Of a stretch of 64,000 bases of DNA, positions 2,750-8,024 are shown piece by piece (the stretch's first letter is position 1; each line of letters begins with the position of its first letter). The stretch is taken from positions 806,001 to 870,000 of the forward strand of contig NZ_JAYDCJ010000003.1 in assembly GCF_034555935.1 (NCBI RefSeq), read 5' to 3'. A model generated the notes under the pieces. It was given only the letters and a program-made list of their open reading frames with translations, was not told the DNA's origin and made no database searches. A program made the translations under genes and the position numbers. The stretch is from Marinobacter qingdaonensis. Its GTDB lineage: Bacteria > Pseudomonadota > Gammaproteobacteria > Pseudomonadales > Oleiphilaceae.

Positions 2750-3424
2750 TCAGATTTCGGCCCAAAACCGCTGCAGATTGGCCAGGGACTTGGTCAGCAG
2801 ATCAAACTCGGCGGACTTGCCGTCGCGCTCAAACAGCTGGCGGCGTGCGGTGTCCAGGTCAAACAGCACCTCGCGCTGGGCCGGATCGCGGATCGTGCTC
2901 TGGATCCAGCCGATGGCGACCCGGCGCTGGCCCCGGCTGACCGGCTCGACCCGATGCAGGGTGGAGGACGGGTAGAGCACCGCCGAACCCGCGGGCAGTT
3001 TGTAGCTCTGTTCCCCGGCGGTGGTGTCGGTGACCAGTTCACCGCCGTCGTAGCTGTCCGGGTCGTCCAGGAACAGGGTGAACGACAGGTCTGTGCGCAA
3101 TCGGCCCGGGCCACGGCCCATGACCGGGTCATCGACGTGGTTGCCGTAGGTCATGCCGTCGCGGTAGCGGCTGAACATCAGCGGCGTCATTTTCGCCGGC
3201 CGGGCCGCCATCTGGAACAGCGGGTGGCTGGTCAGGGCCTTTTCCACTTCTGCGCGCAGGGCCTTGGCGGCGTCGTCGCCCATCTGCATCTGTTCGTTGT
3301 TCTTGACGAGGCGGGCGTGCCAGCCGGCGGTTTTCCGGCCGTCGTCAAAGGCGCCTTTGTCCAGGGCGGCACGCACGCGCTTGAGCTGGTCGCCGCTCAG
3401 GATCTCGCCGATGCATAGAATCAT
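2750..3424 (-). CDS. piuC: PKHD-type Fe(II)/2-oxoglutarate hydroxylase, PiuC/YbiX family
   Basis: A 224-residue soluble dioxygenase. The double-stranded beta-helix iron site is complete: His96 and Asp98 (GNHVDDP) and His157 (STLHRVEP), with Arg167/Arg168 placed to bind 2-oxoglutarate. The length matches the PiuC/YbiX family (about 225 aa). In other bacteria these genes often sit next to iron or siderophore receptor genes, and their substrate is not firmly known. Here no TonB receptor is adjacent; the divergent neighbour is the Gly-Gly-Glu/His-His repeat lipoprotein. The start at 3424 was chosen over a longer reading frame because homologues begin with MILCIxxIL-like sequence. Confidence 0.88.
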   Translation of the reverse strand: MILCIGEILSGDQLKRVRAALDKGAFDDGRKTAGWHARLVKNNEQMQMGDDAAKALRAEVEKALTSHPLFQMAARPAKMTPLMFSRYRDGMTYGNHVDDPVMGRGPGRLRTDLSFTLFLDDPDSYDGGELVTDTTAGEQSYKLPAGSAVLYPSSTLHRVEPVSRGQRRVAIGWIQSTIRDPAQREVLFDLDTARRQLFERDGKSAEFDLLTKSLANLQRFWAEI

Positions 3425-3563
3425 GAGGTTCTCCAATTCGGAATACGAACAATTTGCAAATACGACAGGGTTTGATTCATCATGCACCACCATCAAACAG
3501 CCTTCAATATGGCCGCCGTCGACTCGTGCGATTGGGTGGCGCTTCAACAACAGGAGAATCAGG

Positions 3564-4736
3564 ATGAACAACCAGAAACTCAAACTGTGGACCGGTATTG
3601 GCATGGCCACCGTACTGGCCGGTTGCGGCACCCTCGGTGGAGAAGGTGGCGAAGGCGGTGAGCACCACGACGACAGCCTGCTTGCGTCCGCCCACGGTGG
3701 CGAAGGCGGTGAAGGCGGCGAGCACCACGGCGGTGAAGGTGGCGAAGGCGGCGAACACCACGGCGGCGAAGGTGGTGAGGGCGGCGAACACCACGGCGGC
3801 GAAGGTGGTGAGGGCGGCGAGCACCACGGCGGTGAAGGTGGTGAAGGCGGCGAACACCACGGCGGTGAAGGTGGTGAGGGCGGCGAACACCACGGCGGCG
3901 AAGGTGGTGAAGGCGGCGAGCACCATGGCGGTGAAGGTGGCGAAGGCGGTGAACACCATGGCGGTGAAGCCGGCGCGGCCTTCAGTTACTTTGCGGCCGG
4001 TGGTGAAGGCGGCGAAGGTGGCGAAGGTGGCGAAGGCGGAGAAGGCGGAGAAGGCGGAGAAGGCGGAGAAGGCGGAGAAGGCGGCAGCGCCGTCTCGGCC
4101 GTGGACTCCGACGGCGCCTATGTCGCCATGCTGCAGATGATGCAGGGCCACCTGATGGCAGCGCGCGAACTGATTCAGGCCGGCGATGTGGCCGAAGGTC
4201 GTCCGCACCTGACCCACCCCTGGGTGGAAGTCTATCCGATGGTCAAGGCGGGTCTGGCGCACCGGGACCAGAAAGCCCTGGGTGAGCAGTTGCACACCCT
4301 GGCGGAAAAAGCCGGTCAGGTGGACAGCTGGGACGAGATCAGTGCCGACTTCCAGGCTGCCTGGGTCGGTATCGAGCAGGCCGTGAACACCACCGAGGGC
4401 CTGAGCGCCAGCAGCGTGTCCAAGGTCATCCTGTCGCTGACCAAGCAGGCGGTGCTGGAATACGACGAGGCCCTGGACGGTGATCAGTTCGTGGCCGAGC
4501 ACGAGTACCAGGACGGTCGCGGTTTCGTGGCGGCGGCCCGGGACTACCTGGCCGAGCATGAGGCGCACCTGGTGAAGCAGAACAAGGAAGCCTGGCGCGA
4601 CACCGGCAAGGCGCTGAACGAGCTAGCAAAGGCCTGGCCGACGCCGGTGCCACCGCAGAAGCCGGTGGTGTCCACGTCCAACCTGTACGCGGCCCAGGCC
4701 CGTCTGGAACTGGCGCTGGCGCCTTACCTCTACTGA
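3564..4736 (+). CDS. Lipoprotein with GGEGGEGGEHH tandem repeats and a helical C-terminal domain
   Basis: A 390-residue predicted lipoprotein: signal segment 1-20 and lipobox LAGC with Cys21. One GGEGGEGGEHH unit lies at residues 25-35. Eight perfect 11-residue units follow at 45-132. After a short linker containing Phe-Ser-Tyr-Phe, nine GGE triplets run at 146-172. Residues about 180-390 form a non-repetitive, mostly helical domain rich in His, Glu and aromatic residues (for example HPWVEVYP, LEYDEAL, AEHEYQDG). The start has an AGGAG site at 3552-3556. The repeated His-His and Glu residues could bind metal ions or carry surface charge; that is inference. The C-terminal part vaguely recalls imelysin/EfeO-type helical bundles, but I could not confirm a family. 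It is divergent from piuC and convergent with the copper operon. Confidence 0.85.
   Translation: MNNQKLKLWTGIGMATVLAGCGTLGGEGGEGGEHHDDSLLASAHGGEGGEGGEHHGGEGGEGGEHHGGEGGEGGEHHGGEGGEGGEHHGGEGGEGGEHHGGEGGEGGEHHGGEGGEGGEHHGGEGGEGGEHHGGEAGAAFSYFAAGGEGGEGGEGGEGGEGGEGGEGGEGGEGGSAVSAVDSDGAYVAMLQMMQGHLMAARELIQAGDVAEGRPHLTHPWVEVYPMVKAGLAHRDQKALGEQLHTLAEKAGQVDSWDEISADFQAAWVGIEQAVNTTEGLSASSVSKVILSLTKQAVLEYDEALDGDQFVAEHEYQDGRGFVAAARDYLAEHEAHLVKQNKEAWRDTGKALNELAKAWPTPVPPQKPVVSTSNLYAAQARLELALAPYLY
3696..3959 (+). repeat. Eight tandem 33-bp units encoding GGEGGEGGEHH
   Basis: Eight in-frame 33-base units with identical protein sequence but differing third-codon positions (ggc/ggt, gaa/gag, cac/cat). The scatter of silent changes shows that the protein repeat is conserved while the DNA has diverged. 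Because the unit is a multiple of three, copy-number change would not break the frame. Confidence 0.97.
3999..4079 (+). repeat. Nine tandem 9-bp units encoding GGE
   Basis: Nine Gly-Gly-Glu codons triplets in the same gene. The last five units are identical at DNA level (ggcggagaa), unlike the first four, which suggests recent slippage expansion. This makes the array a likely length-variable site between strains. Confidence 0.95.
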
Positions 4737-4808: not shown

Positions 4809-5261
4809 TCACTGATGATGGGCCGAGAACACCCGGGTCTGTCCTGCCTCGTTGAACAGCAACACCTGGTACGGATCCTTGCGATCCCCCATCTCCATGC
4901 CCGGTGAACCCACCGGCATACCCGGTACACTGAGCCCACGAGCCTTGGGCGCATCGGCGATCAGTCGATGGATATCACTGGCCGGCACATGTCCCTCGAT
5001 CACGTAATCCCCGACAAAGGCGGTGTGGCAGCTGGCCAGGGCAGGCGTCAGTCCGGCTTCCAGCTTGATTGGGTTGAGGTTCTCGGTTTCGGTCACCTTC
5101 ACCTCAAAGCCGTTGGCTTCCAGATGCTTGACCCAGTCGGTGCAGCAGCCGCAGGTGGGCGACTTGTACACGTGAATGTTTTGGGGCGCGCCGCCCGCCA
5201 GCAGCGGGGTGCTGAAGCCCAGAGCGGCGGTCAGGGCCAGGCCCAGAACCGGATGTTTCAT
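4809..5261 (-). CDS. Periplasmic DUF411 metal-binding protein
   Basis: A 150-residue exported protein with a signal peptide (about 1-22, cleavage near Leu-Leu-Ala-Gly-Gly). The DUF411 core begins with YKSPTCGCC (Cys37, Cys39, Cys40), followed by Cys78-His79 and His91, and ends with a Met-rich GMPVGSPGMEMG segment and a His-His pair. Members of this family are repeatedly found with copper resistance genes and are thought to bind copper in the periplasm. It is the last gene of the regulator-copA-38aa-DUF411 operon, 37 bases after the small ORF, which supports a copper role. Confidence 0.88.
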   Translation of the reverse strand: MKHPVLGLALTAALGFSTPLLAGGAPQNIHVYKSPTCGCCTDWVKHLEANGFEVKVTETENLNPIKLEAGLTPALASCHTAFVGDYVIEGHVPASDIHRLIADAPKARGLSVPGMPVGSPGMEMGDRKDPYQVLLFNEAGQTRVFSAHHQ

Positions 5262-5298: not shown

Positions 5299-5415
5299 TC
5301 AGTGGTGCTGGTGGTCCTGATCCGGGCTTGTGCCACCGGACGGTGCCAGCCAGAACCACCAGACAATGGCGGCCATGAGCACCAGGCCTCCAGCGTTGAC
5401 CAGAAAGCTTGTCAT
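5299..5415 (-). CDS. 38-residue membrane peptide with His-rich tail, overlapping copA
   Basis: A short gene between copA and the DUF411 gene. Its ATG (5415-5413) shares a base with the copA stop codon (TGATG), the arrangement expected for translational coupling. The peptide has one hydrophobic segment (about residues 4-23, containing two adjacent Trp) and a tail ending in HQHH. A membrane anchor with a metal-binding tail is plausible. It resembles the small open frames often found beside copper ATPase genes, but no named family could be assigned. Confidence 0.65.
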   Translation of the reverse strand: MTSFLVNAGGLVLMAAIVWWFWLAPSGGTSPDQDHQHH

Positions 5416-8024
5416 CAGTTCCGTGCCTCCTGCGGGTCGGCTTGTAAGGAAGAGGGCCCGGCGCGGTTAGCCGTCTTGAACAGCCGCAGCCGGTTGGCGT
5501 TGGTCACCACGGTCACCGACGACAGCGACATGGCCGCGCCAGCCAGAATCGGGCTCATCAGGATGCCCCAGACCGGGTAGAGCAGGCCGGCGGCGACCGG
5601 AATGCCCAGGGTGTTGTAGATAAACGCCCCGAACAGGTTCTGGTGGATGTTCTTCACCGTGGCCCGGGACACCTCGATGGCGTCTGGCACCCCGTGCAGG
5701 GAGCCGCGCATCAGGGTGATGCCGGCGCTTTCAATGGCCACGTCGGTACCGGTGCCAATGGCAAAGCCCACGTCGGCGGCGGCCAGCGCGGGCGCATCGT
5801 TAATGCCGTCGCCGACCATGGCGACCGTGTAGCCCTTGCCGCGCATGGCACTGACGACCTCGGCCTTGTCCTCGGGCAGGACCTCGGCGCGGTACTCGTC
5901 GATGCCGAGACGGGTGGCAATGGCTTTGGCGGTGGCGTCGATGTCGCCGGTCACCATCATCACCCGGATGCCGGCATCGTGCAGACGGTCGATCGCGGCC
6001 TGGGAGTCCGGCTTGATGGCGTCGGCCACACCGATGACACCAATCACCTCATTGCCCAGGGCCAGATACAGGGGCGTACCGGCCTCGCCGGTAATGCGGT
6101 CGGTGTCTGCATCCAGGTCGCGCACCGCCAGGCCTTCGGCTTCCAGCCAGCGCCGGTTACCCAGGCGCACCGTCTGGCCTTGATAGGCACCGATCACGCC
6201 CTTGCCGTTGAGGGCATGAAACTGGTCCACCGCGGCCGGTTCCAGGCCATCGGCTGCCGCCCGGGCCAGAATGGCCTCCGCCAGCGGGTGCTCGGAGTGC
6301 TTCTCCAGACCGGCCGCCAGCGCCAGCAAACGCGGTTCGTCCTGATCCAGCGCCGACACCCGGGTAACCGTCGGGTGGCCCTCGGTGATGGTGCCGGTCT
6401 TGTCCAGAATCACCAGATCCAGCTGGCCGGCGGTCTGCAGGGCCTCGCCCTGGCGGATCAGGGCGCCGTATTCGGCGGCCTTGCCGACGCCCACCATCAC
6501 CGACATGGGCGTGGCCAGGCCCAGGGCACAGGGACAGGCGATGATCAGCACCGTGGTGGCGGCCACCATCATGTGTACCACCGCCGGCTCCGGCCCGAGG
6601 TTGTACCAGGCCAGGGCGGACACCACGGCGATCAGCATCACCGTGGGCACGAAGACCGCGGAAATCCGGTCGGCCAGCCGACCGATGGCGGGCTTGGAGC
6701 CCTGGGCTTTCTTTACCAGCTTGATGATCTGCGCCAGAGCGGTGTCGCTGCCGACCCGGGTCGCCTCGTACACGATCGAGCCGTGGGTGTTCAGGGTGCC
6801 CGCGGAGACCTCATCGCCCTCGCCTTTGCTGACCGGCATGGGCTCCCCGGTGAGCATACTCTCGTCAATCCGGGTGGTGCCCTCCCGGATGATCCCGTCC
6901 ACCGGCAGCTTCTCCCCGGGGCGCACCCGGATGTGGTCGCCCTTGACCACCTGCTCGACCGGAATGTCCTGCTCGCGGCCGTCGCGCAGCACCCGGGCGG
7001 TCTTGGCCCGCAGGTCCAGCAGCCGCCGCACCGCCTCCGAGGTCTTGCCCTTGGCCCGCAGTTCCAGGGCCTGGCCCAGGTTGATCAGGCCGATGATCAT
7101 GGCCGAGGCCTCGAAGTACACGTGCCGGGCCATCTCCGGCAAGGCCCCGGGCAGGCTGGCCACCACCATGGAATACAGCCAGGCGGTGCCGGTGCCCAGG
7201 GCAATCAGGGTGTCCATGTTGGCGTTGTGGTGGCGAAAGGCCTTCCAGGCCCCGGTAAAGAAATGGCCGCCGGTGGCGGCCATGACCACCAGGGTCAGCA
7301 GGCCGAGACCGAGCCAGGTGGCCTGGTTGCCCTCGGTCACCATCATGGTGCCAAAGCCCATGCCCCAGACCATCAGCCCCACCCCCAGAGACAGGCTGAC
7401 GGCCATCTTGACCAGCAGCGTCCGGTACTGGGCGCGATCCTGCGCCTGGCGGCGGTCGTCGGCCGCGTCCTCGTCCTCAATCAAGCTGGCGCCATAGCCC
7501 GCGCTTTCGATGGCGGCAATCAGCGCCTGTGGGTCGGCGCGCCCGGTGGCGGTGGCGGTGTTGTCCGCCAGGTTCATGTGGGCGTGACTGACACCCGGTA
7601 CCGAGCGCAGCGCTTTCTCGATGGTATTTACGCAAGAGGCACAGGTGGCGCCGGTCACAGCCAGGGCCAGCTGATCACTGGCGCCGGCTGTCGCGGAGCC
7701 GTGCCACGGGCCGGCGTCGTTCTGGGCCTGGGCCTCAGCAACCTCAGATTTACTCTCAGAGGGCGTGTCCGTGGCGCAGCAGGAGGCGCTGGTGGTGGAC
7801 TGGTCGATGGGTTCGGCCGGATACCCGGCCTCGGTCACTCGGCGGGCGGCGTCGGCCCGATCGACATCGGCGGGCAGGGCCACCGTCTGCCGGTCCAGAT
7901 CGACGGTGACCAGATCCCCATCGCCGGTCAGCGGCTCCAGGGCGGCCCGGATTTTCTTCACGCAGCCCTGGCAGGACGCGCCGGAAATGGCGAGGGCGGT
8001 CTGTAGGTATTCTTTATCGGCCAT
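5415..8024 (-). CDS. copA: Cu(I)-exporting P1B-type ATPase
   Basis: An 869-residue inner-membrane ATPase that pumps Cu(I) out of the cytoplasm. Two N-terminal heavy-metal domains carry CxxC motifs: GASCQGC (Cys18/Cys21) and GATCASC (Cys128/Cys131), joined by a linker with a Cys82-Cys83 pair. The actuator TGEP is at 392-395, the transmembrane copper motif CPC at 497-499, the phosphorylated Asp541 in DKTGT, a Ser-Glu-His-Pro nucleotide-binding motif near 585 and GDGINDAP in the hinge. All catalytic residues are present. The gene follows the MerR-type regulator by 6 bases and overlaps the 38-aa gene at its end. Confidence 0.96.

Follow-up and report, generated by a model that had tools for sequence, protein, structure and literature searches.

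In the closest described systems, CciT-CciO of Caulobacter, PiuA-PiuC of Pseudomonas, and Fiu-YbiX of Escherichia coli, a PiuC-type dioxygenase is encoded in an operon with its partner, a TonB-dependent receptor, and the pair serves iron acquisition. CciO, a PiuC homolog, is required for CciT-dependent iron acquisition, and a possibly cell-associated, iron-binding substrate of the enzyme is modeled in the accessible part of that study (PMC12004947). According to the portion available of a second study, CciO is not required for the transport of iron or copper itself (PMC12004943). As far as the accessible portions of both papers go, they leave the function of CciO open, and the question of what PiuC, CciO, and YbiX do in iron uptake bears on the uptake of siderophore-antibiotics. 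In the part of PMC3751524 available to us, the Caulobacter gene CC_0027 (cciO) was upregulated by a factor of 15.65 when iron was limiting and by a factor of 26.39 when fur was mutated.

The locus described here, from Marinobacter qingdaonensis, resembles these systems in placing the same dioxygenase family beside a candidate envelope iron protein. It differs from them in that the partner is a divergently transcribed, exported helical lipoprotein and in that the dioxygenase belongs to another part of the family tree. Genome comparison establishes that this pairing of a predicted exported helical protein with a particular kind of PiuC, in an iron context, is recurrent. The window, by which we mean the whole stretch of 64,000 nucleotides that was analyzed, holds the following features:

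2750..3424, minus strand: gene for a PiuC-type Fe(II)/2-oxoglutarate dioxygenase, the divergent partner (NF003974, PF13640, PF18331)
3442..3460, minus strand: Fur-box-like site TTTGCAAATTGTTCGTATT in the gap that separates the divergent pair (de novo motif and held-out model)
3564..4736, plus strand: gene for the exported lipoprotein with a GGE-rich arm, 390 amino acids, ATG start (open reading frame and translation)
3564..3626, plus strand: signal peptide with a KLKLW motif and the lipobox LAGC ending in Cys21 (by reading)
3636..3668, plus strand: isolated GGEGGEGGEHH unit, from residue 25
3696..3959, plus strand: eight tandem GGEGGEGGEHH units of 33 bases each (TRF and sequence)
3999..4079, plus strand: second arm of nine GGE triplets (TRF and sequence)
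4110..4733, plus strand: helical domain, residues 183-390, with conserved H196, H215, H218, E222, E299, E314, and D317
4809-5261, minus strand: DUF411 gene (Pfam)
5415-8024, minus strand: CopA gene (named by reading; order conserved in relatives)

Our identification of the divergent partner as a PiuC is secure by family model. It scores 290.6 bits against NF003974, where the cutoff is 143, which places it in the PiuC/CciO/YbiX family (PRK05467), and H96, D98, H157, and R167, which we take to be the Fe/2OG ligand residues, are invariant in all 71 aligned PiuC proteins. The neighbor that a sequence-only reading of the window had named PiuC is thus confirmed by both Pfam and NCBIfam. That reading had further linked the lipoprotein to PiuC and placed it in a metal context, and both claims stood: homologs adjoin metal genes, and the two genes are adjacent and codistributed across genomes. 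Among 61 lipoprotein loci, some of which are one place fetched twice, PiuC lies within the fetched stretch of 48 and is divergent in 47 of these, with a same-strand PiuC in L089 as the exception. Counted by genus label, PiuC accompanies the lipoprotein locus in 20 of 28; five genus labels with a lipoprotein member, mostly a remoter one, have none. In a phylum-wide sample of 398 genomes, PiuC was found in 101, comprising 11 of the 12 with the lipoprotein versus 90 of the 386 without it (Fisher 1.7e-6; this and the other statistics given here ignore shared ancestry), and it was adjacent in 9 of the 12. The association is sharper within Marinobacter (n = 79), where PiuC occurs in 19 genomes, that is, in 18/18 with the lipoprotein versus 1/61 without, and the sole PiuC without a lipoprotein (genome G121) sits beside a TonB-dependent receptor. 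Pairwise distances of the two proteins are also correlated (r of 0.72 for 32 pairs and 0.52 for 25 pairs with a single Marinobacter). On a tree of the helical domain, which has long branches and an unsure deep order, PiuC adjacency clustered no more strongly than in shuffles (90 of 500 were as low), and in a nearest-partner check of nonadjacent pairs the two genes did not point to the same host.

The PiuC proteins that accompany the lipoprotein are of a different kind from those that accompany receptors. For comparison, 40 PiuC loci not beside the lipoprotein were hand-picked from 103 in the phylum sample. With two queries, a CciT-like TonB-dependent receptor was found in 36 of these 40 versus 0 of the 61 lipoprotein loci, the latter including the window's own 4.2-kb stretch, so that no lipoprotein locus holds a gene pair of the CciT-CciO type; with seven receptor queries, the counts were 38/40 versus 6/61. 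When 74 PiuC proteins were placed in a tree, one clade with support of 100/99 took in 36 of the 40 hand-picked proteins and three further copies, and all 28 lipoprotein-adjacent PiuC proteins fell outside it, together with L165, L166, L139, and L140, whose genomes carry the lipoprotein gene elsewhere, and L143, L174, and L185. The proteins outside do not form one clade. Seven positions have diverged between 32 outside and 39 receptor-type proteins, namely, S85/N, Y93/F, M102/R, T155/S, A170/S, G172/F, and K212/G (window numbering, outside residue first; L143, L174, and L185 omitted).

Regulation brings the two kinds of locus back together. A Gibbs search of 31 nonsimilar PiuC-lipoprotein intergenic regions, chosen from 43, returned the consensus ATTGCAAATTATTCGCATT with 16.9 bits, versus 8.9 to 9.4 bits in six shuffled sets. 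A scoring model was built from 27 of the 31 sites, with L085, L090, L113, and L135 dropped as lacking the motif, and with it positions 3442-3460 are the only site of at least 12 bits in the window. A held-out model, trained on 12 sites that all lie outside the window's genus and family, put the same site at the top of 127964 positions (17.5 bits; runner-up, 12.3 bits), and for each of 10 further loci scanned from the window's family, its best site was at the corresponding intergenic position. The motif resembles a Fur box: the classic Fur palindrome scores 19.4 bits with the 27-site model, and another register of the palindrome scores 6.5. As in the receptor systems, where sites of at least 12 bits precede 28 of 36 receptor genes that neighbor PiuC (versus 1.25% of shuffles and none of the 36 within-gene controls) and E. 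coli fiu has a 12.3-bit site roughly 100 bases upstream, the predicted operator stands in the promoter region, and by this sequence motif the window's pair would belong to a Fur-type regulon and is probably coregulated. A direct search with the E. coli Fur consensus, by which the window reached only 11/19 at best (p of 0.43 to 0.47), was replaced by the de novo motif, and the regulatory case rests on the family's own motif; the E. coli consensus is clear in some relatives (15/19 in L005). Members away from PiuC have an upstream site in L087, L129, L133, and L134 (14.2 to 22.1 bits) and in L059 (10.0 bits), and the 27-site model found none upstream of L086, L088, L131, and L132 or of L089, with its same-strand PiuC. 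Sites of at least 12 bits are not unique to these promoters, given the 27 matches in 11 whole loci totaling 189 kb.

Iron transporters occupy a further part of this context. An FbpA-like gene lies no more than 4 kb away in 6 of the 61 loci (L083, L107, L108, L110, L127, and L088), representing 4 of 28 genus labels, and this is the likeness of the system to the FbpABC/FutABC ferric-iron ABC importers. The L088 genome lacks PiuC; there the lipoprotein frame directly adjoins, or overlaps, the end of the FbpA gene. For L083 and L088, the FbpA-like products have matches to iron-binding proteins of solved structure (best E values of 1.5e-109 and 1.4e-113); the label "ferric" rests on these PDB sequence matches, because the NCBIfam scores of the transporter proteins, among the matches listed, are below curated cutoffs. 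The genome of the window has its own FbpA-like gene (39% identity) at G000:C3:2917651, far from the lipoprotein gene, with a 15.0-bit site 82 bases before its assumed start, and sites of 15 to 16 bits precede FbpA in L083 and L108. The lipoprotein differs from the ferric-binding proteins of such importers in that its model is all helical rather than of the mixed FbpA-type fold, and PDB sequence searches of its domain returned no substrate-binding protein among the matches.

That domain holds a set of conserved residues. AlphaFold2 modeled residues 174-390 (217 residues, 112 sequences) as nine helices with a mean pLDDT of 97.3 and a pTM of 0.93, in agreement with the helical C-terminal domain that had been called from the sequence. 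In the family alignment of 112 rows, which comprises the window protein plus 111 of 129 that the searches had yielded, H215, H218, E222, E299, E314, and D317 are present in 112/112, H196 in 111/111, and H313 in 110/112. On the model, these residues fall on helix 1 (H196), helix 2 (H215, H218, and E222), helix 5 (E299), and helix 6 (H313, E314, and D317). The full set of candidate ligands is not universal, because in a remoter grade from genomes outside the window's class (L085-L087, L090-L092, L109, L111-L113, L130, and L136) H215 is replaced by Met, E299 is replaced by Gln or Met, and E314 is lost, all together, while H196, H218, E222, and D317 are retained; this joint loss would fit the loss of one of two metal sites. 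Most of the conserved set is missing in L061, L062, L093, and L137. Separately, L131 and L132, from genomes without PiuC, have His for E222 and Gly for E314, a possible change of ligand set.

We found no described family that accounts for this protein. It had no match in Pfam or NCBIfam, and PDB sequence searches with the protein and its domain gave nothing significant, which agrees with the earlier statement that no described family with this architecture is known to the reader and gives no sequence match of the C-terminal domain to any well-known family, nonmetal families included. The best PDB profile match of the domain was a designed helical protein (E value of 0.0033), and a structural second look at the model listed common helical bundles. 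Scanning 112 members gave scattered weak Pfam and NCBIfam matches only, among the 25 listed of 68 weak families. We did not take as membership the weak matches to the KxYKxGKxW signal peptide model (9/112 members; best, 7.8e-5) or to sll1863 (11/112; best, 8.7e-4), nor the others, some below 1e-5, which look compositional. The first of these echoes the KLW motif of the signal peptides. EfeO and other imelysin (M75) proteins are exported helical proteins with His/Glu iron ligands that are found in iron-uptake loci. The window protein is likewise a predicted exported helical protein in an iron context; it has no Pfam match, PF09375 included, and the bundles listed for its model are of common kinds. 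Literature searches, with most subscription journals outside their coverage, found no paper on the lipoprotein among the records listed.

Between the lipid anchor and the domain lies the arm. The ATG at 3564 opens the frame used here, which extends back as an open frame to 3264, and by reading the signal peptide is MNNQKLKLWTGIGMATVLAGC, with the lipobox LAGC at residues 18-21 marking the product as a putative lipoprotein. The lipobox Cys21 of a 390-residue product, the nine exact GGEGGEGGEHH units (one isolated and eight in tandem), and the nine further GGE triplets that the sequence-only reading had reported were all found again on recounting. The tandem units start at residues 45, 56, 67, 78, 89, 100, 111, and 122, and the 37 GGE triplets are distributed as 27 within units, one at residue 133, and nine from residue 146; TRF places an array with a 33-base period at 3692-3969 and one with a 9-base period at 4005-4084. 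The DNA of the nine units varies at 8 of 33 columns, all of them third codon positions, and 9 of 9 distinct changes are synonymous, where the synonymous share of possible changes is 23/99. The protein repeat therefore looks selected, beyond the repeat in the DNA alone. An antisense open frame of 354 codons (window positions 3504-4568, minus strand) with AFTTFAAVV-type repeats probably arose as a side effect of the 33-base array. Across the family, a lipobox-like pattern is present in 80 of 110 proteins of at least 240 amino acids. By reading, a lipobox Cys occurs in 3 of 23 Marinobacteraceae starts (L001, which is the window, L004, and L007), the others having a plain signal peptide, and a narrower scripted pattern recovered 1 among those 23; on these starts, a lipobox is untypical of Marinobacter. 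At least four GE pairs occur within the first 200 residues in 74/110 family proteins and at least two His-His pairs in just 6/110, five of them Marinobacter-type, so that Gly/Glu richness is general and the His-His pairs are special. Many close homologs have few or no such pairs, which are mainly a feature of Marinobacteraceae.

Taken together, these results make it reasonably probable, in our judgment, that the lipoprotein is a member of an unnamed exported, often lipid-anchored family and forms with a non-receptor-type PiuC a two-gene, Fur-type-regulated unit of iron acquisition that captures iron and passes it on. Iron binding by the helical domain, hand-over, the function of the arm, and the role of PiuC are the inferred parts of this picture. 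On this account, iron shortage would derepress both divergent genes from one operator. The lipoprotein would sit on a membrane of the envelope, where its helical domain could bind iron through the conserved cluster of His, Glu, and Asp. The Gly/Glu(/His) arm may serve as a flexible acidic tether that loosely collects cations and lets the domain reach. Iron would then be passed to the periplasmic carrier that serves a ferric ABC importer of the Fbp/Fut type, encoded beside the lipoprotein gene in some relatives and at another place on the chromosome here. In the cytoplasm, PiuC may act on an iron ligand or on a partner of the same route; we rank processing of the ligand best, with hydroxylation of the lipoprotein as the alternative. 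Metal buffering or relay, as the sequence-only reading had proposed, would still describe the lipoprotein, with iron as the better-supported metal.

That reading had drawn its metal context partly from copper, and the neighbors it named are there: DUF411 is confirmed by Pfam and CopA by reading, with a MerR-type regulator, likewise named by reading, in an order beside CopA that is conserved in relatives. A copper-buffering lipoprotein belonging to the DUF411/CopA operon, with the His-His pairs as copper ligands, would fit the 21 of 61 loci in which DUF411 is adjacent, usually with CopA and a MerR-type regulator, and it would fit the frequency of such pairs among Marinobacteraceae, the CopA-like ATPase (31%) that adjoins a homolog in L110, and the support that CciT and CciO give to iron-dependent copper resistance in Caulobacter, as reported in the accessible part of PMC12004943. 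Yet all 21 loci are Marinobacter-type, a CopA-like ATPase occurs in only one of the other 40 loci, that of L110, and 39 of 61 match neither DUF411 nor CopA; of these 39, L009, L016, L057, L058, L060, and L083 are examples that keep PiuC. The Fur-box-like site lies between PiuC and the lipoprotein gene, and the His-His pairs are rare outside Marinobacter-type members. We accordingly gave up copper as the main link and regard a copper protein as highly improbable. A very unlikely reading, in our view, is one in which the arm is a mere flexible spacer, the domain is a structural or scaffolding bundle, and the link to iron is through coregulation only. Arm length and composition do vary widely between close relatives (69 to at least 180 residues, with 5 to 37 GGE), and the structural second look listed common helical bundles; against this, conservation among polar residues is highest for His, Glu, and Asp, which are spaced like ligands on helices, and the Gly/Glu richness recurs.

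A different alternative concerns what PiuC does. The cytoplasmic enzyme could hydroxylate the lipoprotein precursor, in its arm or its domain, before Sec export and so make it a better iron ligand, much as MNIO enzymes modify exported peptides, with KLW as the recognition mark. Most PiuC-associated members carry a basic stretch and LW, IW, or RW ahead of the hydrophobic part of the signal peptide, a pattern suggestive of a precursor that is recognized in the cytoplasm. The W precedes the hydrophobic stretch in 20 of 28 genus-level rows, all 20 with PiuC in the genome, and the 8 rows without it divide into 5 without and 3 with PiuC (Fisher 5.7e-4). In this table, g482 (L113, with the W in another spacing) was left out, g452 was counted twice owing to the lack of W in L110, rows were assigned by reading, and start codons were picked by a script. 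For nine genomes, with predictions formed after the survey of the 61 loci, presence of the W predicted presence or absence of PiuC in 8, and the miss (G1095, no W) has a receptor-type PiuC only. The distinct kind of PiuC that accompanies the lipoprotein, seen in the tree and at the seven positions, also favors hydroxylation, as does the substrate of CciO being left open in the available part of PMC12004947. However, PiuC elsewhere acts beside TonB receptors with no such protein, the arm is poorly conserved in sequence, L091/L092 and L110 have an adjacent PiuC and no W, and the table is small, with scripted starts and with PiuC-less members that are mostly remoter. We consider hydroxylation unlikely on balance, though not far-fetched. 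In its fullest form, the lipoprotein would be the substrate of its own kind of PiuC, read by KLW on the nascent precursor, hydroxylated, and exported as a cell-bound iron ligand, in effect a ribosomally made, membrane-tethered counterpart of a siderophore, and this we think quite unlikely. Bufferins and other MNIO-modified exported peptides offer, at most, the likeness of a cytoplasmic iron enzyme with an exported, metal-handling product, judging from the accessible part of that literature. Here the enzyme is instead a 2-oxoglutarate dioxygenase (PF13640/PF18331), which sets the pair apart from the MNIO class of RiPPs, and the product has a folded domain of about 200 residues.

Our favored reading, an iron-acquisition unit with PiuC acting on a ligand, gives PiuC a second and separate partner that would be an exported protein, not a receptor. 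It also offers a likely function for a family for which we found no Pfam or NCBIfam model. Furthermore, the lipoprotein is a small, single-protein candidate for a PiuC substrate or client. The substrate question becomes directly testable because the candidate is a single protein whose presence or absence varies between species of a marine genus. If PiuC does hydroxylate it, the lipoprotein would represent the first substrate class for PiuC enzymes, and iron would have a second route, one with no TonB receptor gene as partner.

The family, for which DOM was our working label, is one of Pseudomonadota on the basis of profile matches, with members also in Myxococcota bins. Within the window's family, the domain profile matched in 30 of 163 genomes (that of the window among them), and it also matched in 12 of 398 of the phylum sample after removal of one spurious match, and in 13 of 181 from a sample of another class, and a protein collection yielded 235 family proteins at an E value of no more than 0.01, 120 of which were listed. 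Outside Marinobacter, the matches listed include Arenicella, Teredinibacter, Thalassocella, Pseudohongiella, Pseudidiomarina, a Sphingomonadales bin, and two Myxococcota bins. We excluded L054-L056, long frames that by eye are ribonucleotide-reductase-like, and L082, a 70-residue match in a 709-residue frame.

Several loci carry features of their own. The usual Marinobacter order is an RNase-R-like gene, PiuC, the lipoprotein gene, DUF411, CopA, and MerR, with all names but PiuC and DUF411 given by eye. It recurs in bins labeled Rhodopirellula (L011) and Halomonas (L008), labels that are probably wrong for these Marinobacter-type contigs. In L008, CopA has shrunk to a 31-residue match (L008:7437-7529) between DUF411 and the MerR gene, through a broken gene or a misassembly. 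A GGDEF-type gene, absent from this place in the window, stands between the lipoprotein gene and DUF411 in L005, L006, L007, L010-L015, L017, L018, and L068, with 34 to 37% identity to the window's GGDEF/EAL-like protein. Cation-efflux (CDF) genes lie near homologs in L058 and L138. The P-type ATPase of L110 (L110:8819-11149, minus strand) has a Cys-rich start, is of the CcoI/FixI kind by eye, and lies beside the homolog, PiuC, and FbpA. In L129 (6288-8433, minus strand), a di-haem peroxidase of the MauG type, whose end is cupredoxin-like, comes 20 bases downstream of the homolog, and the genome has another copy (L130) that adjoins PiuC. Finally, a protein of 137 amino acids from a Marinobacter MAG (P0027) joins a stretch of PiuC straight to the helical domain, with neither intergenic region nor repeats, as the product of a deletion or a misassembly.
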